Below are positions 1,134 through 11,780 of a stretch of DNA of 11,960 nucleotides, piece by piece. The stretch is from Chloroflexota bacterium (lineage in GTDB: Bacteria; Chloroflexota; Anaerolineae; Anaerolineales; Anaerolineaceae), in NCBI GenBank assembly GCA_012800995.1, contig JAAZIH010000225.1:1-11960 (forward strand), written 5' to 3'. The position numbers were made by a program, and so were the translations under genes. Under the pieces are notes generated by a model. That model was not told the origin of the DNA and did no database searches. It saw nothing but the letters and a program-made list of their open reading frames with translations. Each line of letters starts with the position of its first letter. Position 1 is the stretch's first letter.

Positions 1134-1364
1134 TTACTCCTTGGGTTTACTGCTGAATAATTCCTCGATATCCTCACCCATTTTCTTGAAAGTGCTTTTC
1201 ATTTCCTCGCCGAACTTTTTAATCTTGGGGTCATTTTTGCCTTCGTTCCAGGCTTTTTCAAAAGAGTCTCCGACGTCTGAAAAGCTCTGTTTCAATTCGG
1301 CCATTAAATTTTTAGCCCAATTGGGGTCAAATTCTTTTTCGTCGTTTTCGGGTTTATGATCCAT
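1134..1364 (-). CDS. Small charged protein of unknown function, probably a separate gene fused in frame to orr
   Basis: The last 76 codons of the long orr frame start with an internal ATG (1364-1362) preceded by AAAGGAG at 5-nt spacing, as strong a ribosome site as any other here. This suggests independent translation. The product is very rich in Lys, Glu and Asp, has no Cys, signal peptide or membrane segment, and looks like amphipathic helix (for example MAELKQSFSDVGDSFEKAW and FGEEMKSTFKKMGEDIEELF). I recognise no family. If the 8-A run at 1400-1407 is really 7 A, orr stops at 1388 and this is a stand-alone gene 23 nt downstream, the last in the unit. If the run is right, it is a C-terminal tail of the racemase. 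The internal start is well supported; the function is unknown. Confidence 0.6.
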   Translation of the reverse strand: MDHKPENDEKEFDPNWAKNLMAELKQSFSDVGDSFEKAWNEGKNDPKIKKFGEEMKSTFKKMGEDIEELFSSKPKE

Positions 1365-2462
1365 TTGTTCTCCTTTCCAAGCTCTTATTAAAGAGTGACT
1401 TTTTTTTACGTATTCAGATGTCGCGGCTGCCAATGTGGCGCCATAGCCGGGATAAAAGGCGACTTCATCTCCTAATTTTAGTGGCGTGTGCGCGTCGCTA
1501 ACGTCCAAAATGGCATGGTCGCTTGAACCACCCAGGACGATAATGCCAGGATCAATGGGTTCCAAACCCTCGATGACTACATCCTGTCTGCCGAGGTTCA
1601 AAATGGCGCGCTTACGAATACCCCGGTCTTCAAATTTGGGTTCGTTGCCAAACGCGTCTTGACCGGTATCGCCAATTGGCACAGAAGGTTTCTCCAAAAG
1701 CTCGATAATTTCTGCCACAACCTGAATCGTATCCTGGCGAGTGCCTTGCCATGGGCTGCGGTCAAGCACGTTGCGCCCCAGCACAATGGCCTCCCCCACC
1801 CTAAAGTGGTTGATTTCTTTGGGCATCTTGCCACTCGCCAAAAGGGGCAAACCGGAGCTGTTGCCACCGGAGAGTAAACCAAGCTCTAAACCTGTAACGC
1901 GCCGGGCTTCATCACGCGCGTCAATCAGGATTTGCATATTCTCCACACTGGGAATAACCCCACCGTAACATGCCAGGTTCGCGCCCAAACCAACCAAGTC
2001 AAGCCCAGGCAGCATAGCAGCTTCTTTGATAAGGGGGACTAAATTATCCGGCCAAACACCTTCGCGCAAGTCGCCAACATCCACCATAATGATGGGCTTG
2101 TGGATCTTGCCCAGTTTTACCGCAGCATCGGATAGCGCTTTTAGGGTCATCAGAGATGAATTAAGCGAATATTCGGTGTGCATTACAACGTCTTCAGCTT
2201 GCTTTTGCGCGGGCATACGCAACAAAAGGCGCGGAATGCCTGGCAGATGCTCGCCAACAAGACGCAAGTTGGGTACGCGCGAGTCGGCAATCATATCAGC
2301 GCCGGCTTCAATGAAAACCCGCGCGACTTCCGGGTTACCGCGCAAAACCTTGGCTACCATAGCGATTTGAATGCCATTTTCATGGCAAAGTTTGGCAACA
2401 CTCTGAGCGTTTTGTTTTATACGTTCAAGATAGATTTCAAGTCTGGGGCTTGTTTCAAACAT
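1134..2462 (-). CDS. orr: Ornithine racemase (PLP), read through into a C-terminal tail
   Basis: Fold-type III PLP racemase of the alanine-racemase-like family, converting L-ornithine to D-ornithine for the aminomutase. Visible signatures are the PLP lysine Lys38 in MVAKVLRGN, GLGANLACYG (about 158-167), the phosphate-binding SGGNSSGLP (198-206) and RVGEAIVLGR (221-230). The ATG at 2462 has AAGGAG 5 nt upstream. The open frame gives 442 residues, whereas ornithine racemases are about 350. The family-like part ends at ATSEYVKK (residue 354), followed by extra sequence not typical of the family. An 8-A run lies exactly there. With 7 A the protein would end EYVKKVTL (357 residues), the usual kind of C-terminus for this family. 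The gene is in the same orientation as the ornithine operon but is separated from it by a DUF559/repeat spacer, so it may need its own promoter. The racemase call is strong; the fused length is doubtful. Confidence 0.9.
   Translation of the reverse strand: MFETSPRLEIYLERIKQNAQSVAKLCHENGIQIAMVAKVLRGNPEVARVFIEAGADMIADSRVPNLRLVGEHLPGIPRLLLRMPAQKQAEDVVMHTEYSLNSSLMTLKALSDAAVKLGKIHKPIIMVDVGDLREGVWPDNLVPLIKEAAMLPGLDLVGLGANLACYGGVIPSVENMQILIDARDEARRVTGLELGLLSGGNSSGLPLLASGKMPKEINHFRVGEAIVLGRNVLDRSPWQGTRQDTIQVVAEIIELLEKPSVPIGDTGQDAFGNEPKFEDRGIRKRAILNLGRQDVVIEGLEPIDPGIIVLGGSSDHAILDVSDAHTPLKLGDEVAFYPGYGATLAAATSEYVKKSHSLIRAWKGEQMDHKPENDEKEFDPNWAKNLMAELKQSFSDVGDSFEKAWNEGKNDPKIKKFGEEMKSTFKKMGEDIEELFSSKPKE
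1388..1407 (-). other. Poly-A slippage or frameshift junction at the end of orr
   Basis: On the coding strand eight A occupy 1407-1400 at codons Val352-Lys-Lys-Ser355. Removing one A changes the reading to V-K-K-V-T-L and a TAA at 1390-1388. The run could be a homopolymer sequencing error, a real indel, or a slippery site giving both a short racemase and a fused form. The sequence cannot separate these. Confidence 0.6.
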
Positions 2463-2530
2463 CTTTACTCCTTTTATTTATTAATGGCATGACATGTTCA
2501 TGTTTTTGTATATATGTTGTGTATGAATTA

Positions 2531-2570
2531 CCCACCCCCTTTAATTCCCCCTCCATGGAGGGGGCGAAGG
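2531..2570 (-). repeat. G/C-run palindromic repeat, copy 1 (inverted relative to the others)
   Basis: Contains a perfect 18-bp palindrome at 2547-2564 (CCCCCTCCATGGAGGGGG) next to CCCACCCCCTTTAATT. Its reverse complement matches the pattern CCCCCTCC-loop-GGAGGGGG-ATTAAAGGGGG-TGGG seen at 2741-2778 and 3495-3533, so this copy lies in the opposite orientation. This looks like a dispersed intergenic repeat or MITE-like element. Confidence 0.8.
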
Positions 2571-2618
2571 CACGTTGTTCCGCGGAAAAAATTTCTTTCC
2601 AAGAGGTAGTTAATGAGA

Positions 2619-2660
2619 GTTTACTCTGTGAAATAGCATTCCTTCTATAGAGGAGTAAAC
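2619..2660. repeat. 42-nt inverted repeat (hairpin)
   Basis: GTTTACTC at 2619-2626 pairs perfectly with GAGTAAAC at 2653-2660. Inside, ATAG and CTAT can form a second short stem around an 8-nt loop. No T-run follows on either strand, so it is not a standard terminator. Possible RNA element or part of a small mobile repeat; function unknown. Confidence 0.55.
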
Positions 2661-2740
2661 ACGATTTGCACGAATATTCCTCTAAACTTAAAAATGAATA
2701 ACGCAGGTAATATCTGTAAGGATAATGCTTGTCTAAACAA

Positions 2741-2778
2741 TTCCCCCCCTCCTCTGGAGGGGGATTAAAGGGGGGGGC
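2741..2778 (+). repeat. G/C-run palindromic repeat, copy 2
   Basis: An 8-bp perfect stem CCCCCTCC (2745-2752) / GGAGGGGG (2756-2763) with loop TCT, followed by ATTAAAG and a run of G. Same arrangement and orientation as the copy at 3495-3533. These two copies bracket the DUF559 gene as direct repeats. Confidence 0.8.
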
Positions 2779-2834
2779 AAACTCAATGACAAAAAAACCA
2801 GATTGAACAAGATGAGTGAGTGCGCAAATTGTCA

Positions 2835-3206
2835 TCATTCTCCCCAATCCAATTCATGACCAATAATCTCTTCAATTGCCTGATTTATTGTTTCACAGAC
2901 AGCATCAAAATGTCTGTACACCTCATGATTTGTAAACCGGAGTACTCGAATACTCTGTGAATTCAAATACTGTGTTCGCAACTCATCTTTAACTATATTT
3001 TCATCCAGATAATGTTGGGAACCATCCAGTTCAATCACTAATTTTGCTTCATGGCAGTAGAAATCAGCGATGTATGGACCAATGACTTTTTGACGATGAA
3101 AACGTAACGGGTAAGTACTTAGCAACTGGTTCCACAATCTTCTTTCTTCAAGTGTAGCGTTGTTGCGCTGGTTTCTTGCCAGTTGAGTCATCTTCTTTAC
3201 TGGCAT
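2835..3206 (-). CDS. DUF559 family protein (PD-(D/E)XK/Vsr-like nuclease fold)
   Basis: Small protein of the DUF559 family, related in fold to the Vsr/PD-(D/E)XK nucleases; its cellular role is not established. Family marks are the N-terminal ARNQRNNATLEERRLWNQL (helix with E-x2-LW-x-L), IGPYIADFYC and LVIELDGSQHY, then IRVLRFTNHEV. Candidate metal-binding residues are the Asp in YIADF and the Glu and Asp of the ELD motif. I chose the ATG at 3206 (123 residues): AAGGAA at 3220-3215 is 8 nt from it but only 2 nt from the in-frame GTG at 3212. Family members are commonly 110-130 residues, so the gene looks intact. It is flanked by G/C-run repeats and sits in AT-rich DNA inside the ornithine gene set, suggesting later insertion. 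Whether it is an active nuclease is unknown. Confidence 0.88.
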   Translation of the reverse strand: MPVKKMTQLARNQRNNATLEERRLWNQLLSTYPLRFHRQKVIGPYIADFYCHEAKLVIELDGSQHYLDENIVKDELRTQYLNSQSIRVLRFTNHEVYRHFDAVCETINQAIEEIIGHELDWGE

Positions 3207-3250
3207 AGACACAGTTCCTTATATCCCGTTGCTATTCTGGAATAGTGTCG

Positions 3251-3336
3251 TGTCCGAACAATCCATCCCCTTGTATTCCTCTCCCAGGTGCCTTTTGTCC
3301 GATCAACCCACCCCCTTACATCCCCCAGCCGAGAAA
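3251..3336. repeat. Tandem imperfect repeat with an internal hairpin
   Basis: Two related units begin TGTCCGAACAATCCATCCCC (3251) and TGTCCGATCAACCCACCCCC (3296), each continuing with TT(G/A)(T/C)A, then C-rich sequence and CAG. The second unit runs into the hairpin GCCGAG (3328-3333) / CTCGGC (3341-3346). It belongs to the same C/G-run repeat region that surrounds the DUF559 gene. Confidence 0.55.
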
Positions 3337-3494
3337 AGCACTCGGCACGCAAGCAGTCCCAGGAGGAGGTGAATGGGTTTCTCCTTAAAAAGTGCTTTGT
3401 AATTAATATTGATATTCTCCTTGAACTTAATGATAAACAATGTGAATGATTTCTATCTACCTTTAAATTTATGAATAAAACGAGAGAATAGTTG

Positions 3495-3533
3495 TTCCCC
3501 CCCTCCTTTGAAGGGGGATTAAAGGGGGTGGGG
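3495..3533 (+). repeat. G/C-run palindromic repeat, copy 3
   Basis: Reads TTCCCCCCCTCC, a short loop, AAGGGGG, then ATTAAAGGGGGTGGGG. Nearly identical to the copy at 2741-2778 and the reverse complement of that at 2531-2570. It ends 3 bp from the stop codon of the glmL-like gene, marking the edge of the ornithine operon. Confidence 0.8.
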
Positions 3534-3536
3534 CTT

Positions 3537-4868
3537 TTAATTAACATCAGAATGCCTTACCCAATGCACAAAAGAGTCCTTGACTTCCTCGGGATAATGA
3601 TGCGCTAAGGTGCCAAGCGCAGAAAAACGATATGATCCGTCAATAATAACTTTAGTCTCGGGCGTGGGTAATAAATGTTGACCCGCGCCCATGCAAATCC
3701 CCCGTAAGATTTCCTCGCCACCACTGAGGTGCGTTAACGCGCCACCTGTACCCACCAGCCATTGTACGGCGGTCAGGTCTTTACCGCGTACAATCTTGAT
3801 CTTTCCGGAAGGCGTATACAGGTCGCTCACCTGCCCGGCATGGCGGCGTATGGCGGTCTCGACTGCGCGCTTGGTGAGCCAACGGGTCAGGTTCATCTCC
3901 TGCTCGGTCTGAGGCATCGCCATAAGATGCTCCATTTCGGCTTCCCATTCTGGGTCGTTTGCCAGAGCAAGGATGTTGGCGGCATTCACAAACACGCCCA
4001 AATCGCCCTCAACAGTACGCTTGGCGACAGGTTCAGGGTCCGTTAACCGCGAAGTCCACTCCAGGCTTCCCTCGGTCACGCTATGCACATCGGTTGTTGC
4101 ACCACCCACATCAATCACAAGCACGTCGCCCAGGGCTTCCGTGAACAATTTTGCTGCCAGCAACACCGCGCCTGGTGTGGGCAATACAGGCGCCTGGGTC
4201 AACTCAGCTAAACGCGACATTCCTGGCGCGTGCACGATATGCTTATTAAAAAGTTCATGAATAATGACACGTACCGGTTCGATATTGAGCTGATCAACCG
4301 CCGGAAAAACGTTCTCAGCGAGCATCAGTTCAACACCTGTGCGTTCGAAAATATCCTTAATTTGAGCGCGAATGGCGATATTTCCAGCATAAATAACCGG
4401 TGCGATGGGACCCAGCGAAGCAATCGCCTTGGCATTTTGCACAACGATGCGTTTTTCGCCGTAGTCCACCCCACCTGCCAGGAGAATGATATTGGGCTGA
4501 ATTTCTTGTATCTCCGCCAAATCGTATTCATCCAAGGCACCAGCGGTGATTTGCTTGATAATCGCGCCAGCACCCAGAGCGGCTTCACGCGCCGCACGAG
4601 CGGTCATATTAAAGGTCAAGCCGTGGACGGTCATTCGCAGACCGCCCGCGGCTGAACTGTTTACAAAATACTGAGGGTCTTCCAACGCCCGAGGCAAGGC
4701 TTCATTCAAAACAGCCAACGCTGATTCAACACCAATACCAACATCGCCACTACTTATAGATGTCGCGGCAATACCCTGCGCCAAATGCTCAAAACGACCT
4801 TCTGGCAAGAGCGCGAAAGCGTTTGCCTTAGTTATCGTTGAGCCGACCTCAAGCGTTAGAATATCCAT
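3537..4868 (-). CDS. GlmL/MutL-family ASKHA ATPase, candidate ornithine aminomutase chaperone or reactivase
   Basis: 443-residue protein of the GlmL/MutL family (actin/Hsp70-like ATPase fold) found beside B12-dependent carbon-skeleton mutases and aminomutases. Nucleotide-binding signatures are LEVGSTITKANAF (6-18, with Glu7 where many relatives have Asp), VIDVGGATTDVHS (251-263, phosphate-2 loop) and LVGTGGALTH (371-380, adenosine loop), followed by DGSYRFSALGTLA near the C-terminus. It starts 6 nt after the oraE stop. The ribosome site is weak, so translational coupling to oraE is likely. Position right after oraE suggests it keeps the AdoCbl/PLP mutase active, for example by exchanging damaged cobalamin. 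That role is inferred from family and location and is not shown for ornithine aminomutase in this organism. It is the last gene of the compact operon before the repeat-rich spacer. Confidence 0.87.
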   Translation of the reverse strand: MDILTLEVGSTITKANAFALLPEGRFEHLAQGIAATSISSGDVGIGVESALAVLNEALPRALEDPQYFVNSSAAGGLRMTVHGLTFNMTARAAREAALGAGAIIKQITAGALDEYDLAEIQEIQPNIILLAGGVDYGEKRIVVQNAKAIASLGPIAPVIYAGNIAIRAQIKDIFERTGVELMLAENVFPAVDQLNIEPVRVIIHELFNKHIVHAPGMSRLAELTQAPVLPTPGAVLLAAKLFTEALGDVLVIDVGGATTDVHSVTEGSLEWTSRLTDPEPVAKRTVEGDLGVFVNAANILALANDPEWEAEMEHLMAMPQTEQEMNLTRWLTKRAVETAIRRHAGQVSDLYTPSGKIKIVRGKDLTAVQWLVGTGGALTHLSGGEEILRGICMGAGQHLLPTPETKVIIDGSYRFSALGTLAHHYPEEVKDSFVHWVRHSDVN

Positions 4869-4874
4869 TTATGA

Positions 4875-7088
4875 CTAAACGACACCACGTTCTTTGAGAA
4901 CTTTTACAATGGCGTCAACCACGTTGATACCCTTGCATCCGCGCCCAAATGTGGCGTCCATACCTGTTTCGGCTGCCATATCGGCACTGACTTGCGTGCC
5001 GCCAGCAATTAAAACGACCTTATCGCGAATACCTTTCTCGCGACAAAGCTCGTCAAGCTTGCGCATGTTTATGCGGTGCACGTCGCCGTGGCTGATAATC
5101 GTGGAAATTAAAATAGCTTGCGAGCCAGTTTCAATGGCAGCATCCACCATCTTCTCGATGGGTACAGACGTTCCCAAATAGTGATATTTCACACCATAGG
5201 TCTCGATTCCACCATGTTTGATGTCCAAAATCTCTCGCAATCCAACGCTATGTTCGTCCTCGCCAACCGTACCAGCGACAACGGTGAGATTGGTCTTCTT
5301 CACTGCAGCACGAATTTCTTCTTCGGATAGTAAAACGACTTTTTCTGGGATTTTCAGGTCGCGGCGATCAATGTCAAAGGTCACTTGTCCCTTAACTTCC
5401 AGGAAACAGCCTTCCGCTGGGTGCAAGACCATCAAATTAATCACTTGAGGATCTTCCAAGCCCATGCGTCGCGCGATTTCCAAACCAGCTTCGCGGGCGT
5501 AATCCTCGTTTTCGGGGATCATCATCTCTACCAGAACTGTTCCATCGCCAGCCCATTCCACTTCGGGTCTAATCAGGTTGCCTTTGCGGTAGTCCCAGGT
5601 TTTCTCAAGGCGTTTGTGCACGTTGTCTTCGGGGTCAAACTCGTCGATATAGGTAATCAGGTCAGGATTACAGAGCGTGCAACCACCGATGGCGTCACAA
5701 GCATGTGTGATGCCATCAGGCAGGTGGTTATCCCCAAAGTGAGCGCATACGGGTGCCAAATAGTCAGGGTCGCGTTCGATAATGCTTCCCGCAGCCACGC
5801 CACCATCACCCTGGCGAGCGATACCGTCGCCGGATCGTTCAGGATACTGCGCAGAATCGACAAAGAAACCTTTTTCAACCGCGGCAAAGTAACCGCCAAC
5901 TTCAAGGATTTCCTCAAGGAAAGCCACGGCGCGTTCTTTGATATCGCGTACCATATCACCAAGAGGACCATCGCGTTTGATTTGAATCATTTCATTCAGC
6001 CCGTCCATCGCCGCCCAGGTTTGTTTCACGGTTTGAACACCACGGATGTTGTTGTAGTGCCAGGGCACGTTGCGGCCTTCATCAGGCGTAATCGTGCTTT
6101 GGATGTCAGCACTGGTGAGCATAGAAATGATGGTATCGATGGTATGCGTGCGAATAGCTTCTTCGATGGAGCTTTCAATATAGCGCGTGTTTTGTTGCGC
6201 GCGCATTTTGAAATCCGAGAAAATTTCGCGCAGTGCCACAGCGTAGGGCAGGTCATACCAGAACTTTGGCGCGGGTGGTGAGTTAGGCGGTACGGTGCTG
6301 AGACCGATGAGGTCTTTGGGCATTCCCGAGCGCACACTATAAGCACAGTTGATGCCATGTTGCACAAGCAATTCGGGCATCACCAGCCAACCAGCTTTCG
6401 CGGTCGCGTTGGCGTTGTGCGCGCCGTCAATCTGGAAGATACCAGCTGAAGACATCACCTTTTTCGCTTCAGCAGCGTCCACAAAAGAGCGGTACATATT
6501 GATATTGCGGTACAGAACGTTGTATTGCGGGTCCTGATGCGCGCCGTTGATACCTTCTTCCGCGAAGAGAACAGCAACTTCGGGTCCAGCTACACCAGAA
6601 ACATAGCTGTGGAAGTTGATTGGACGGCCGACTTCTTCTTCAATCAGGTCAATCGCCTTGCGTGAGGCGCGAATTTGCTTGCGCGTGATGGGTACACCTC
6701 CCACACCTTCGGGGGTGCCTTCCATCAAACCATCAATATGGCTTTGTCCTGTGTGGCGAATGACCATCAAGTGGTCAGCACCATGCCAGGCACCCATGCG
6801 CATGCGACGGATATCATCTTCAAATCGACCAGAAGCGATTTCCGTTGTCACGACGGGTTTGGGTTGGGGATCGATGTTATCGAAATACTTCGAGGCGGGC
6901 AAGCCGATACTGCGTTTTAGGGGTTCCGCCATATCGCGATAGTGGAAAGGTCCCATATCAACGCCTTCTTCGGGCACAACACGCCAGGTCCAGCCTTTGC
7001 GGGGTGGGCGATAGTCTTCAAGATTCTCGAGAATCGCTTCAATGTCTAATTTCTTGTTAGGGTCTAAAGGTTGCATTTTCTTAGTCAT
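4875..7088 (-). CDS. oraE: D-ornithine 4,5-aminomutase, large (catalytic) subunit
   Basis: Adenosylcobalamin- and PLP-dependent subunit that, with OraS, converts D-ornithine to (2R,4S)-2,4-diaminopentanoate by radical 1,2-amino migration. At 737 residues it matches the family. An N-terminal TIM-barrel part (to about 400) and linker precede a C-terminal Rossmann B12 domain (about 595-737). The base-off B12 motif DEHSVG gives Asp611 and axial ligand His613; IST (661-663) and the GGTQVS loop (696-701) complete the site. Lys624, eleven residues after the ligand His in LDIK, is the expected PLP Schiff-base lysine: in the Clostridium sticklandii enzyme the pair is His618/Lys629, the same spacing. 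The ATG at 7088 lies 2 nt after the oraS stop, with GAGGAGG inside the end of oraS. Cys470 and Cys473 in a CTLC pair precede the linker. No residue I checked is lost, so it should be functional. Confidence 0.96.
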   Translation of the reverse strand: MTKKMQPLDPNKKLDIEAILENLEDYRPPRKGWTWRVVPEEGVDMGPFHYRDMAEPLKRSIGLPASKYFDNIDPQPKPVVTTEIASGRFEDDIRRMRMGAWHGADHLMVIRHTGQSHIDGLMEGTPEGVGGVPITRKQIRASRKAIDLIEEEVGRPINFHSYVSGVAGPEVAVLFAEEGINGAHQDPQYNVLYRNINMYRSFVDAAEAKKVMSSAGIFQIDGAHNANATAKAGWLVMPELLVQHGINCAYSVRSGMPKDLIGLSTVPPNSPPAPKFWYDLPYAVALREIFSDFKMRAQQNTRYIESSIEEAIRTHTIDTIISMLTSADIQSTITPDEGRNVPWHYNNIRGVQTVKQTWAAMDGLNEMIQIKRDGPLGDMVRDIKERAVAFLEEILEVGGYFAAVEKGFFVDSAQYPERSGDGIARQGDGGVAAGSIIERDPDYLAPVCAHFGDNHLPDGITHACDAIGGCTLCNPDLITYIDEFDPEDNVHKRLEKTWDYRKGNLIRPEVEWAGDGTVLVEMMIPENEDYAREAGLEIARRMGLEDPQVINLMVLHPAEGCFLEVKGQVTFDIDRRDLKIPEKVVLLSEEEIRAAVKKTNLTVVAGTVGEDEHSVGLREILDIKHGGIETYGVKYHYLGTSVPIEKMVDAAIETGSQAILISTIISHGDVHRINMRKLDELCREKGIRDKVVLIAGGTQVSADMAAETGMDATFGRGCKGINVVDAIVKVLKERGVV

Positions 7089-7090
7089 GA

Positions 7091-7450
7091 TTATGCCTCC
7101 TCAAACAGCCCATTAAGGACTTCTTTGTTTTCTAAAATAGCATCGCCAGCGGCTTTTACGTCGATGTCAAGTTTTTGGCTAAGCTTTAACAAAACATGTC
7201 CCGCGCCTTTGCCAAGCAAGCCAGCCTGATGGATCGCATCCACAATACCATGCGATTTGGCACTATTAATGCCCATTCTCAGTAAAATAGAACGCTCGAT
7301 GGATGGCGATGTGTGTGTGCGTGCCAGGTCGATGATGGGATCAACGACTTGATAGCACAAATCCCAAAAATGAGCTTTGAGCTCGTCGTCGCTAAGCGTT
7401 TTCAAACGTTCGTGACGAACTTCAAATTGTTTGATACGTTCATCTGTCAT
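7091..7450 (-). CDS. oraS: D-ornithine 4,5-aminomutase, small subunit
   Basis: 119-residue partner of OraE. OraS is needed for aminomutase activity and contributes to the heterodimer around the TIM barrel. The family core is clear: LSDDELKAHFWDLCYQVVDPIIDLA, then TSPSIERSILLRMG and GLLGKGAGHVLLKLS. Length is normal. It starts with ATG 12 nt after the ortB stop, with AAGGAG 7 nt upstream. Its final codons (Glu-Glu-Ala-stop) are also the GAGGAGG ribosome site for oraE, coupling translation of the two subunits. Confidence 0.95.
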   Translation of the reverse strand: MTDERIKQFEVRHERLKTLSDDELKAHFWDLCYQVVDPIIDLARTHTSPSIERSILLRMGINSAKSHGIVDAIHQAGLLGKGAGHVLLKLSQKLDIDVKAAGDAILENKEVLNGLFEEA

Positions 7451-7462
7451 TTGTGTCTCCTT

Positions 7463-8875
7463 TTATTCTTCTTGTGGTAAATTGGCACGCACCCAATCGG
7501 GTGTGCTCTTGATATCAGCTGCCAAAAAGGCGATATCTTCGTCAGTCCAGGCTTCCACGGGAAGGCGTTTGGCAGCGTTGCGCAGGTAGGAATGTCTGAG
7601 ACTTTCCATATCCTGTGCTTTGCCCCGCACCTGGTCAAGCCGTTCGGGTAAAACGATGGTTTTGCCGGGTACGTTTTCAGCGGGGTCGCCAACGTAAACC
7701 TTGATACCATTTTCGCGCGCGAAACTGAGTTGGCTGTTGTGATGTTTGCCAGCGCCGGTATATTCGGTTTCCTGCACCACGACAATTTGATCGCGGTCCA
7801 TTTGGCGCGCCATGGCAACGGCAGCGGTCAGACTGGTGTTTCCTGCAGGACCACGCTCGATACCTTCCAGTTTGGTCAGCAACTCGGTCACGTAAAAGAC
7901 CTCGCCCTGGGTCACGAGCTGGTATTCGTCCATGTAACGCAAACTGCGCGCCGCGTTGCGGGGCACGTCAGCGCGATCCGGCCAGGTGGCAAAGGGTACG
8001 CCGAAACCGGTGTGCCCGGTGGTGAACGATTTTTTGTTGAAGTCTGTATCAGACGCCATGTGCAAGCCGCTCAAATCAACTGAGCAAGCCACAATGCGGG
8101 TGTCGGTCGCGCCAGCGGCTAAGATACCACGCGCTGTACCGGTCAGGTTGCCCCCACCCGCTTGGGTGATGATAACAGCGTCAGGGTCCTGGCCATATCG
8201 CGCGCGTACTTGCTCAACAATTTCGCTGCCGAGTGTTTCCACGCCACGAATGCCGAAAGGTGTATACAAACTGGCGTTGAAGAAGCCGGTTTGTTCAAGC
8301 GTGAGCAAATGGATGTAGAAAAGCTCCGGTCCGACGGTCAGTTTAATCACTTCCGCGCCATAGGCTTCGCATTTACGTCCTTTTTCGATGATTTCAGGTT
8401 GACCAACACCACGTGAGTCATAAACTTCCTGAATGACGATACACTTCAGGCCGCGTTGGTTGGCTTGTGAAGCAACTGCGGCGCCATAATTGCCACTGGT
8501 GGCAGCCACAACGCCTTTGAAACCTTTTTTAGCGGCTTCAAAAACCGAAAGTGCTGCCCGGCGGGCTTTGAAACTACCTGAGGCGTTCGCGGCTTCATCT
8601 TTCAAAAGAATTCGCGCGCCTTTGCCTGGTTCGGAGATTTTCCGCACCGCATCGGTCAGGCGTTTGAGTTCAAAAAGGGGTGTGTTGCCGACCTTGGTTT
8701 CAGCCTGAATTTTAACAATCTCTTCATGGCTATAACCGGTATCACGCATCATGCGTTCGTAGTCAAAAGCAATTGGGCTGGAAATATAATCGTCATAATC
8801 CATTCCCACAGAGGCTTTCATGATTTCGTTACTGCGTGCCATAACGGCACTGTAGCTGTTATCGCGCGCGCTCAT
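7463..8875 (-). CDS. ortB: 2-amino-4-oxopentanoate thiolase, beta (PLP) subunit
   Basis: 470-residue fold-type II PLP enzyme (threonine synthase/tryptophan synthase beta relatives). With OrtA it cleaves 2-amino-4-oxopentanoate with CoA to alanine and acetyl-CoA, the last step of ornithine oxidation. Visible: the PLP lysine Lys103 in NASGSFKARRA, the substrate-side loop TSGNYGAAVA (126-135), the glycine-rich phosphate loop QAGGGNLTG (238-246), and QETEYTGAGKHHNS near residue 385. Length equals the clostridial enzyme (about 470). The start codon overlaps the ortA stop by 1 nt (TAATG), with GAGGAGG just upstream, so the two subunits are translationally coupled. A generic threonine-synthase-like lyase is unlikely given the ortA neighbour and the full pathway around it. 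Confidence 0.95.
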   Translation of the reverse strand: MSARDNSYSAVMARSNEIMKASVGMDYDDYISSPIAFDYERMMRDTGYSHEEIVKIQAETKVGNTPLFELKRLTDAVRKISEPGKGARILLKDEAANASGSFKARRAALSVFEAAKKGFKGVVAATSGNYGAAVASQANQRGLKCIVIQEVYDSRGVGQPEIIEKGRKCEAYGAEVIKLTVGPELFYIHLLTLEQTGFFNASLYTPFGIRGVETLGSEIVEQVRARYGQDPDAVIITQAGGGNLTGTARGILAAGATDTRIVACSVDLSGLHMASDTDFNKKSFTTGHTGFGVPFATWPDRADVPRNAARSLRYMDEYQLVTQGEVFYVTELLTKLEGIERGPAGNTSLTAAVAMARQMDRDQIVVVQETEYTGAGKHHNSQLSFARENGIKVYVGDPAENVPGKTIVLPERLDQVRGKAQDMESLRHSYLRNAAKRLPVEAWTDEDIAFLAADIKSTPDWVRANLPQEE

Positions 8876-9162
8876 TATGCCTCCTCTTCGTCGATACCGA
8901 TATCTAAGAGTTCAGCCATGGTTGGTCCAAAACTGTGGTTATAGCTGGGATTGACCACCTTTAACATGCCCTGATGCTTTCGCCCAATGAGCGATTTGAC
9001 AGTTACTTCATCACCTATCTCAGCGTCCGCAGTCAAAAAACCGCTTAAGCGCATGAGGTATGGGGTTTTCTTGGTATCTTCGGGTAAGTTCTGAGCACGT
9101 TCCGCGGGTTGCAAAACAACGCGCTCAATTTCAACCCAGGTTCCTTTTTCGATTTTTGCCAT
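8875..9162 (-). CDS. ortA: 2-amino-4-oxopentanoate thiolase, alpha subunit
   Basis: 95-residue subunit that pairs with OrtB. It has the typical OrtA pattern: WVEIERVVLQPAERA, then PEDTKKTPY, GFLTADAEIGDEVTVKSLIGR and VVNPSYNHSFG. It is a small beta-rich protein with no transmembrane segment or Cys. The ATG lies 3 nt after the ord stop, with GAAGGG 8 nt upstream inside ord. Its end codons Glu-Glu-Ala-stop provide the GAGGAGG ribosome site for ortB. The ortA-ortB order and overlap match the clostridial ornithine operon, which makes the call firm despite the small size. Confidence 0.94.
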   Translation of the reverse strand: MAKIEKGTWVEIERVVLQPAERAQNLPEDTKKTPYLMRLSGFLTADAEIGDEVTVKSLIGRKHQGMLKVVNPSYNHSFGPTMAELLDIGIDEEEA

Positions 9163-9165
9163 AGC

Positions 9166-10203
9166 TTAAACCCTTCGGGTATAAGCTGTTTCGCCCATCA
9201 GTGCTGCTGGTGTAGGCATGTCAATCATGCGTTTGAGTCCAGGTGTAGCAGCGAAAACGTGGGGGATCATGTTGACGGCGATGCCCTGGGTGGCGATGCC
9301 ACCAGCATATTCAGGGGTAATCGCCATATGGACTTCGGGCGTACCGTAGATGTTGATGTAATCACCAGTGTCCTGCCCCTCAAGCTGAGGATGGACCTGT
9401 TGTGGGTGGATGAGGCGGATAACTTCTTTATCGCCACGGTAGCCGATGCCAATGTGCGCGCAACCAGCCACCATGCCGGGTTCAATGACCACATGCGGGG
9501 TTTCGCGGCGCACGGAGCTGACGATAGGCTCGCGGATTTCTTCGATGCGGTCAACGCCCAATCCAATGGCATCGCTAATCATGCGAATGGATTCCGGAAA
9601 ACCGACGTGCCCAACAATGGTGCCGGCTTCAACGCCAGCGCGGAAAGCTTCGGGGCTGGTGCCCACACCCTGGGTTTCCATGACGGTGGGCCCGTAAGGG
9701 CTAAGGTCATTGACGCGTGAAGCTTCAATGCGTTCCACCTCATGGCAACCGCCGGTCAGCATGACGACCATCAGATCAAGCACGTAGCCGGGGTTCACGC
9801 CAGTACCCAGGATGCTCACCCCGTTGGCTTTGGCGAGTTCATCCAGCTCTTTGGCGAGTTCGGGGTTTTGCGCTTCCGGCGTTGACATTTCCTCGGCGAT
9901 AGAAATACAGTTGATGCCCGCTTTGAGAATTTTGCGCAAATCCGGCATTTGTTTTCCAGTCCACGAAGTGGTGGCGATGACTACAACGTCGACTTTTTCT
10001 TTATCTAAGACGGTTTCGGGCTTGTTGGTGACGATTACGCCGGTGTTTTCCACACCGATAACCTCACCCAGGTCTTTGCCGTTATAACCTTCGTAGCCAT
10101 CCACAGCGGCAACGATTTTGAGACCTGATTTTTTGAGCGCGAGCTTGGCCATGCCACTGCCCATTGCACCCAACCCCCATTGAAGCACACGAATTTGTTT
10201 CAT
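9166..10203 (-). CDS. ord: 2,4-diaminopentanoate dehydrogenase
   Basis: 345-residue NAD(P)-dependent amine dehydrogenase, in sequence a relative of the DapB-like Rossmann dehydrogenases. It oxidatively deaminates (2R,4S)-2,4-diaminopentanoate to 2-amino-4-oxopentanoate plus ammonia. The N-terminus carries the dinucleotide motif WGLGAMGSG (residues 9-17); VDVVVIATTSW (73-83) and ISIAEEMSTPEA follow. Signatures shared with clostridial Ord include GVSILGTGVNPGYVLDLMV, RVNDLSPYGPTVMETQGVG, GHVGFPESIRMI, HPQQVHPQLEGQDTGDYI and a C-terminal MIDMPTPAALMG. The ATG at 10203 has AAGGAG 8 nt upstream. It is the first gene of the six-gene minus-strand operon, so its upstream region should hold the main promoter. 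Confidence 0.96.
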   Translation of the reverse strand: MKQIRVLQWGLGAMGSGMAKLALKKSGLKIVAAVDGYEGYNGKDLGEVIGVENTGVIVTNKPETVLDKEKVDVVVIATTSWTGKQMPDLRKILKAGINCISIAEEMSTPEAQNPELAKELDELAKANGVSILGTGVNPGYVLDLMVVMLTGGCHEVERIEASRVNDLSPYGPTVMETQGVGTSPEAFRAGVEAGTIVGHVGFPESIRMISDAIGLGVDRIEEIREPIVSSVRRETPHVVIEPGMVAGCAHIGIGYRGDKEVIRLIHPQQVHPQLEGQDTGDYINIYGTPEVHMAITPEYAGGIATQGIAVNMIPHVFAATPGLKRMIDMPTPAALMGETAYTRRV

Positions 10204-10625: not shown

Positions 10626-10631
10626 TACAAT
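10626..10631 (+). promoter_or_regulatory. Candidate -10 box of selD (leaderless transcript)
   Basis: TACAAT ends 7 nt before the selD ATG, so transcription would start at or next to the start codon. No Shine-Dalgarno is seen before the ATG, which fits a leaderless mRNA. A weak -35 (TTCCCA, 10603-10608) is at 17-bp spacing. In-frame TGA at 10612-10614 rules out a start much further upstream. Confidence 0.45.
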
Positions 10632-10638
10632 AATTCCC

Positions 10639-11706
10639 ATGGATAAAAATGCCCAAGACATCCGCTTGACCGCGCTGTCAAGCACTGCTGGTTGAGCCTC
10701 AAAACTAAGTGCTGAAGCACTGGCGCAGGTTCTGCAGCCAATCAAAGCGAAATTTATTGCTGAAGACTACCCAGACTTGCTGGTTGGTCTCAGTATGCCT
10801 GATGACGCCGCTGTGTGGAAACTGAACGAGCATAGCGCGGTGGTCTTAACGACCGACTTCTTTACACCGGTCGTGGATGACCCCTATGCCTATGGCGCCA
10901 TCGCGGCTGCCAACAGCATTTCCGATATCTATGCGATGGGTGCTAAACCTGTTTTGGCGCTTAATATCGCCGCCTTGCCCGCGAACTTACCGGTGGAAGT
11001 TTTGCGCGAGATTATGCGTGGTGCGGCAGATAAGTGTGATGAGGCGGGCGTGGTCATTGCTGGCGGACATACCGTAACCGATCCCGAACCTAAATTTGGT
11101 TTAGCTGTTTTAGGTTTGGTGGATCCTGTGGATATCCTTACCAAAAAGGGCTTGCAGGCAGGCGACGCGCTGTTTTTGAGCAAACCTTTGGGCATTGGGG
11201 TAAGTACGACCGCCCTAAAACGTGGCAAGTTAGGTCCAGATGCTCTGCAAGCAATTACCGATTGGATGATGCGCCTGAACAAAGACGCGGCAGAGCTGGC
11301 AGAAGCCTGTGACTTGCAGGCGGTGACCGATATTACCGGCTTTGGACTTATGGGGCATGCATCAGAAATGGCAAAGGTTTCTGGCGTCGGGCTGGAGTTT
11401 TGGTATGACCATTTGCCGGTCCACGATTGTGCGCGGGCTTGCATTGAGGCTTTTACCTATCCCGGTGGCGCGTTTAACAACCACAAGTATTTTGGCAAGG
11501 ACGTTTTTCTTGACTCCGAACTGACTGAAAACCAACACATGGCCATTTTTGACCCACAGACCAGCGGTGGCTTGTTGATGGGTGTGCCTGCTGAAAAAGT
11601 TTCGAGGTTCAAGGCTTTGGCAGATGAACGCGGTGTTGATGTTTGGGAAATTGGCAGGGTTTTAGCTGAGAACGAATATCGTCTGCTGGCTCAAAAGCCA
11701 AATTAA
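10639..11706 (+). CDS. selD: Selenide, water dikinase (selenophosphate synthetase), a selenoprotein with in-frame TGA (Sec19)
   Basis: Makes selenophosphate from selenide, ATP and water, the selenium donor for Sec-tRNA. Translated from ATG 10639 through one in-frame TGA (10693-10695) it gives 355 residues (E. coli SelD has 347). The N-terminus reads IRLTALSSTAG-Sec-ASK, aligning with E. coli IRLTQYSHGAG-Cys17-GCK: the TGA stands exactly at catalytic Cys17, Lys22 matches essential Lys20, and Ser21 replaces the dispensable second Cys. Family motifs follow: MPDDAAVW (53-60), TTDFFTPVVDDP (71-82), SISDIYAMGAKP, AGGHTVTDPEPKFGLAVLG (141-159), TDITGFGLMGH (230-240) and DPQTSGG (305-311). A conventional caller would start at TTG 10777 and lose the active site. 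A SECIS-like hairpin follows the TGA. The gene is divergent from the ornithine operon and ends in a terminator. Confidence 0.93.
10693..10732 (+). promoter_or_regulatory. Bacterial-type SECIS element in selD
   Basis: The UGA is the foot of a hairpin. GAGCCU (10694-10699) pairs with AGGUUC (10727-10732, one G-U), an internal loop follows, then AGUGC (10708-10712) pairs perfectly with GCACU (10717-10721) around the 4-nt loop UGAA. The loop G at 10714 is about 19 nt after the UGA. Position within the coding region, spacing and a G near the start of the loop fit bacterial SECIS rules for SelB binding. The fold was done by eye. Confidence 0.75.
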
Positions 11707-11750: not shown

Positions 11751-11780
11751 AACCGTGGTTAGAAGTCCACGGTTTTTTGT
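11751..11780 (+). terminator. Rho-independent terminator of selD
   Basis: A perfect 8-bp stem AACCGTGG (11751-11758) / CCACGGTT (11767-11774) with an 8-nt loop is followed by a T-rich tail (six T to 11778, then GTTTT). It lies 45 nt after the selD stop and is in the right orientation to end that transcript. Confidence 0.88.

Follow-up and report, generated by a model that had tools for sequence, protein, structure and literature searches.

A selD gene of the Anaerolineales with a conserved in-frame UGA at its catalytic codon and a predicted SECIS element

The stretch of DNA analyzed here (the window) comprises 11,960 nucleotides and is part of a genome that consists of 296 contigs and is 81% complete (contig G000:C95). 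The plus strand carries selD, the gene of selenide water dikinase (selenophosphate synthetase), at 10639–11706. Its reading frame starts with an ATG at 10639, ends with a TAA at 11706 and encodes 355 residues when a TGA at 10693–10695 is read through. This TGA, residue 19 of the protein, is the only stop within the frame. Downstream of selD, at 11751–11774 of the same strand, an 8-pair stem followed by TTTTGTTTTA matches the consensus of an intrinsic terminator. The minus strand at 1134–10203 is occupied by a divergently oriented ornithine fermentation cluster with ord, ortA, ortB, oraE and, judged by position, a probable oraS; it also includes a GlmL relative resembling Or-4 and a protein resembling ornithine racemase, both scoring under their cut-offs. 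Between the genes of the latter two lies a small DUF559-type gene (2835–3212, minus strand; 80.7 bits, under the cut-off of 218), possibly a mobile insertion. Within the flanks that were fetched (about 1.5–3 kb) ord was present at three of 35 selD loci, namely in the window and in two genomes, G141 and G120, whose SelD resembles that of the window most.

The read-through protein was recognized by the selD family TIGR00476 with 363.8 bits (cut-off 125) and by NF002098 with 354.5 bits (cut-off 299), and its best solved relatives are the chains 3u0o, 2yye/2zod and 2zau, all of them SelD. A reading of the bare sequence (the sequence-only reading) had described the frame as open and SelD-like on both sides of the TGA, which these scores and the single in-frame stop bear out. 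It had also placed the TGA at the position of the catalytic cysteine. In the alignment with 3u0o, which we take to be E. coli SelD, the TGA residue is indeed paired with Cys17 of the chain; the stretch U19-A-S-K22 is aligned with C-G-C-K, so that the lysine three residues on is common to both proteins. The two sequences match with 258 bits; whereas the E. coli protein has a cysteine at the catalytic site and a second one at +2, the protein of the window would have selenocysteine (Sec) and serine. By their SelD, the nearest named relatives in our contig collection, which may omit entries for the genome of the window itself and for very near ones, are assemblies of Anaerolineae, Anaerolineaceae and Chloroflexi.

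A search with the protein covered 301 genomes of the order, a selection from a larger group, and gave matches at E ≤0.001 in 270 of them, some of these being weak only. An in-frame TGA was present in 148 of the best 150 matches (147 genomes), the two exceptions being SelD sequences without internal stop in G159 and G188. In many Anaerolineales the protein that supplies activated selenium thus appears to be a selenoprotein itself. Three genomes (G152, G277 and G216) gave two TGA-containing SelD matches each, possibly duplicate Sec-SelD genes or a mixture of strains. When the 30 closest loci were checked codon by codon, all 30 had TGA at the aligned site. A second collection of 80 loci from many phyla had TGA in 22, TGT in 35 and TGC in 23 cases, so that besides TGA only cysteine codons (58 of 58) are found at the catalytic site. 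Since the codon is conserved, a chance origin of the TGA can be excluded, and the close relatives share the predicted Sec-SelD state. Also the surrounding N-terminus, RLT..S..AG-U-xxK, is kept among the relatives. The Sec type is not universal among the SelD of Anaerolineae; Cys-type genes occur there too, in an Anaerolineaceae genome (bin52, locus L095) and in Anaerolineae W167 (L100).

The residues around the catalytic site deserve a comment, as the sequence-only reading had pointed to the replacement of the second cysteine by serine. The serine itself stands, but it is typical of the relatives: at +2 the 30 closest loci have serine in 28 cases and alanine and glycine in one each, and none of them has cysteine. 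Among 52 Sec-SelD genes from the loci L014–L043 and L054–L133 a cysteine is found at −3 in 39, at +2 in eight, at both positions in none and at neither in five. Serine at +2 is therefore normal, and the missing cysteine at −3 is the rarer trait. The five genes lacking a cysteine at both positions are those of the window, of G141 and of three Pelotomaculum.

Bacterial SECIS elements are, according to the passages of PMC13188914 that set out the rule, hairpins with a loop of 3–9 nt, a stem of 4–16 pairs, a G among the first two nucleotides of the loop, a spacing of 16–37 nt and an energy of at most −7.5 kcal/mol. A hairpin of this kind is predicted at 10722–10739 on the plus strand. It consists of the arms GGCGCAG and CUGC(A)GCC, which form seven pairs with one bulged A, and of the loop GUU, which has its G in first position and begins 33 nt past the UGA. 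The predicted energy of −7.5 kcal/mol (z −2.08) lies exactly at the limit and was reached by nine of 200 shuffled sequences. Thus the hairpin agrees with the published rule in loop, G, stem, spacing and energy, and differs from the model in the bulged A of its 3′ arm.

In an alignment of 30 genes the ratios of observed to expected synonymous variation at codons +8 to +14 past the TGA were 0.18, 0.09, 0.11, 0.15, 0.71, 0.18 and 0.55, compared with 0.93 from codon +16 onward, near expectation for most of the gene. The fifteen-codon window beginning at +8 has the lowest value of all 332 such windows of selD, and the codons with reduced variation are those of the hairpin GGCGCAG-GUN-CUGCGCC. Covariation was analyzed with 52 Sec-type genes, the 30 closest ones and the 22 from the second collection. 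The helix is formed in 89.6% of the cells of this alignment; changes on both sides are seen in five of the seven pairs, which was equaled in two of 500 shuffles, and neither the 19 cells with such changes nor the covariation score were reached in any of 500 shuffles. The score was 0.239 for the hairpin and 0.037–0.082 for slid versions of it.

Sec and Cys genes can be compared at the same site, and a bacterial SECIS can in this way be tested by comparison. Among the 80 loci the complete plain 7-pair stem is present in 17 of the 22 Sec genes and in none of the 58 Cys genes, the best of which reach five pairs. Cys genes of Paenibacillus and Cohnella encode a similar peptide at the site, yet lack the full stem. 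Part of this contrast may be due to ancestry, since the two sets come largely from different clades, with the Cys genes mostly from Bacteroidales and Paenibacillus-type bacteria.

Not all analyses of the hairpin speak for it. Strong covariation is a property of the 52-sequence set and not of the 30 closest genes, within which the hairpin is unremarkable: the helix is paired in 86.7% of the cells, a value at least as high being obtained in 59 of 500 shuffles, the plain stem is complete in 14 of the 30, and RNAalifold returned five weak pairs for these sequences. When the region from the UGA onward was folded over 47 or 63 nt, shuffled sequences did equally well (z −0.26 and −0.36). These results, together with the need for a bulged A and an energy just at the limit, count against reading the gene as a Sec-SelD. 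A scan of the window with Rfam gave no match at the gathering scores. We also built a model of the TGA and the hairpin (R1) from 34 selD sequences, members of the genus among them. It matched selD of the window with E 3.0e-5, this gene being part of the training set, and gave one strong match in each of 21 genomes out of the 29 of the genus, in every case selD with the stop at residue 19. A second, smaller hairpin with the predicted fold AGUGC-UGAA-GCACU lies immediately upstream (10708–10721, plus strand) and is lost in about half of the relatives. We set it aside as a SECIS candidate on account of two among its five pairs, which are broken in 13 and 15 of the 30 sequences, respectively; it is probably dispensable.

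The sequence-only reading had suggested looking for selA, selB and tRNA-Sec in the same genome, and this search was successful for two of the three. A tRNA-Sec is located at G000:C163:1236-1326 (73.6 bits, cut-off 47), for which ARAGORN gives the anticodon TCA (UCA in the RNA). SelB is split between two contigs, its N-terminal part lying at the end of C149 and the remainder opening C168; the two parts share the residues at the junction, from LDLLDIQKGFVVLT onward, and score 186.2 and 176.9 bits, each alone under the cut-off of 242.25. SelA gave no match in this 81%-complete genome, which may count against a Sec-SelD. Among the 29 genomes of the genus, selA and tRNA-Sec were over their cut-offs in 23 each and selB in 26. 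Absence of selA/selB/selC from a complete genome had been named beforehand as an observation that would refute the sequence-only reading; this is not the situation found, because the genome is incomplete and selA is present in 23 of the 29 genomes of the genus.

Five other genomes of the genus (G097, G203, G222, G281 and G305) have selA and selB over the cut-offs, G097 and G203 also tRNA-Sec. SelD matches were weak or absent in the first four, the SelD search not having included G305, and the selD SECIS model had no match below E 0.39 in any of the five. G097 is the odd case, as this genome, listed as 99% complete, has Sec machinery but no evident SelD.

Taking these observations together, we conclude that selD of the window is very probably a genuine Sec-SelD, with its catalytic UGA read as selenocysteine and equipped with a SECIS element, SelB and tRNA-Sec. 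This conclusion, which is drawn from sequence comparison, is based on the conserved codon, the covarying hairpin, the presence of tRNA-Sec and SelB and the fact that UGA is still used as a stop. All these indirect tests agree with the proposal of the sequence-only reading that the organism decodes UGA as Sec.

Could the TGA stand in place of a TGT or TGC through an error of sequencing or assembly? The assembly is fragmented into 296 contigs and Cys-type SelD do exist, but the same codon recurs in 30 of 30 loci of this and other genomes and is followed on its 3′ side by a selected hairpin missing from the Cys genes that were fetched. We therefore regard an error as extremely improbable. It is also very improbable that selD is a pseudogene or that its true start lies past the TGA at 10777, giving a shortened protein. 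Many public predictions do start past the TGA; the N-terminus RLT..S..AG-U-xxK is however conserved, the shortened form would be devoid of the catalytic residue, and the frame contains no second internal stop. Finally an in-frame UGA alone does not reveal which residue is inserted, and it might be decoded by a suppressor tRNA or a reassigned one, as happens in alternative codes. Against this stand the presence of tRNA-Sec and SelB, the exclusive use of cysteine (58 of 58) in the loci without TGA, and the termination by TGA of 60 of 476 long open reading frames in a sample of G141 and of two genes of the window. As TGA still ends genes elsewhere, UGA would be recoded in its context only, and a reassigned code is very improbable.

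With Sec insertion as the preferred reading, the following sequence of events can be proposed. The ribosome would start at the AUG at 10639 and reach the UGA 18 codons on, where SelB, bound to the hairpin at 10722–10739 and carrying Sec-tRNA-Sec(UCA), would place selenocysteine at the catalytic position; the conserved codon, the RNA element and the machinery all point to this step. Enzymes of the SelD family convert selenide and ATP into selenophosphate. SelA would in turn take the selenophosphate made by SelD to produce Sec-tRNA-Sec, and SelD would therefore depend on its own product, which would be the feedback loop proposed by the sequence-only reading. When selenium is scarce the UGA might act more often as a stop, leaving a peptide of 18 residues.

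The in-frame stop has consequences for annotation. With the ordinary genetic code an open reading frame starting at a TTG at 10777 is obtained, and the two nearest of the near-identical public proteins, 303 and 310 residues long, start downstream of the TGA. Both observations agree with the prediction of the sequence-only reading that automated annotation shortens the gene to a start at 10777. Of the 120 homologues listed 91 are shorter than 340 residues, so that the N-terminus with the active site of such proteins is often missing from public predictions. The protein listed for Longilinea arvoryzae (P0074), a cultured relative within the Anaerolineales, is also a short one. Another 25 of those listed are full length with a cysteine at the site, and four, of 350–359 residues, lie outside the site motif used.

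The region in front of the start codon, considered in the window (10626–10639) and in L014–L043 and L172–L211, suggests that the selD mRNA is probably leaderless. A −10-like box (TACAAT, 10626–10631, plus strand) ends 7 nt upstream of the ATG. In the 30 loci examined the pattern TANNNT occurs 4–9 nt upstream of a candidate start in 18, six loci having more than one candidate start, compared with 4.8% of single random positions. A Shine–Dalgarno-like motif was seen in five of 30 selD loci. In the sample of G141 the distance from the box to the first ATG downstream peaks at 6–7 nt (43 and 16 of 460 long open reading frames; 5–18 at most other positions), and because this peak is sharp, a general class of leaderless genes seems to exist in that genome.

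Having assigned SelD to the selenoproteins, we considered whether it might be the sole selenoprotein of the species, in which case the whole Sec machinery would mainly serve the enzyme feeding it. We searched for formate dehydrogenase alpha without obtaining a match in the window's genome, G141 or G120. FdhA was over its cut-off in seven of the 29 genomes of the genus, none of the seven with an internal stop, and is therefore, judging from the match, not of the Sec type there; weak, partial FdhA matches were obtained in further genomes of the genus. Selenouridine synthase was not found in the 81%-complete genome of the window. The model of TGA and hairpin returned nothing beyond selD below E 0.15 in the 29 genomes, with 150 candidates scored per genome, fewer than the first pass gave in each. 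In a search with PF07355 (glycine/proline reductase subunit) no control matched.

In addition 40 stretches of G141 with 798,620 bases (about 40% of the genome) were screened for genes bridged by a TGA, and selD was the only one accepted. The screen was crude and its thresholds were altered after results had been seen. The first round passed three of 743 TGA sites in the first 400,000 bases with selD in second place; under changed rules 11 of 1463 sites passed in the same bases (selD fourth) and 11 of 3645 in the 798,620 bases (selD first). Relaxed rules gave lists of 10 and four rows, with selD in the first of these only, where it ranked second by total score. The other candidates were set aside by eye on account of weak coding scores, low complexity, an antisense-like character or a gene start close downstream.

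A sole selenoprotein seems unlikely to us on balance: the window's genome is 81% complete, the screen covered about 40% of G141 and was crude, with candidates dismissed by eye, and the SECIS model was trained on selD only. Even less likely is the fuller picture, in which such a sole SelD would support no Sec-type formate dehydrogenase and no tRNA selenouridine, the machinery would chiefly build its own supplier, the mRNA would be leaderless and the Sec would have no neighboring thiol. The analysis draws attention to species for which one may ask what the Sec machinery serves. Passages of PMC1794560 report species with SelD as single selenoprotein and explain them by the selenouridine enzyme YbbB; they also contain the proposal that SelD can sustain Sec decoding where FdhA is absent, the majority of these species having the selenouridine trait. 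Deep-sea Chloroflexi possess Sec-type formate dehydrogenases according to a passage of PMC5736913.

Sec-SelD is a known selenoprotein family, in print since at least 2006, and the gene of the window is very probably an ordinary member of it. Among the open-licence papers listed in our searches we found no report of Sec-SelD in Anaerolineae, which is no proof of absence. Among bacteria Sec-SelD is not rare. FdhA and SelD are described in a passage of PMC1794560 as the most widespread selenoproteins, and PMC4561486 gives a share of 19% with Sec among the SelD genes that were detected, the Sec lying at this position throughout and the Sec-type selD having a SECIS. Passages of PMC5029168 and PMC12013277 are consistent with this general picture. 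Compared with the Sec-SelD/SPS proteins as presented in these passages of PMC1794560 and PMC4561486, the gene of the window would belong to the same family, with the same single Sec position and a predicted SECIS within the coding region. Measured against those descriptions nothing is fundamentally different; what sets the proteins of the window and of G141 apart, as it does those of three Pelotomaculum genes, is that they have no cysteine at −3 and +2.
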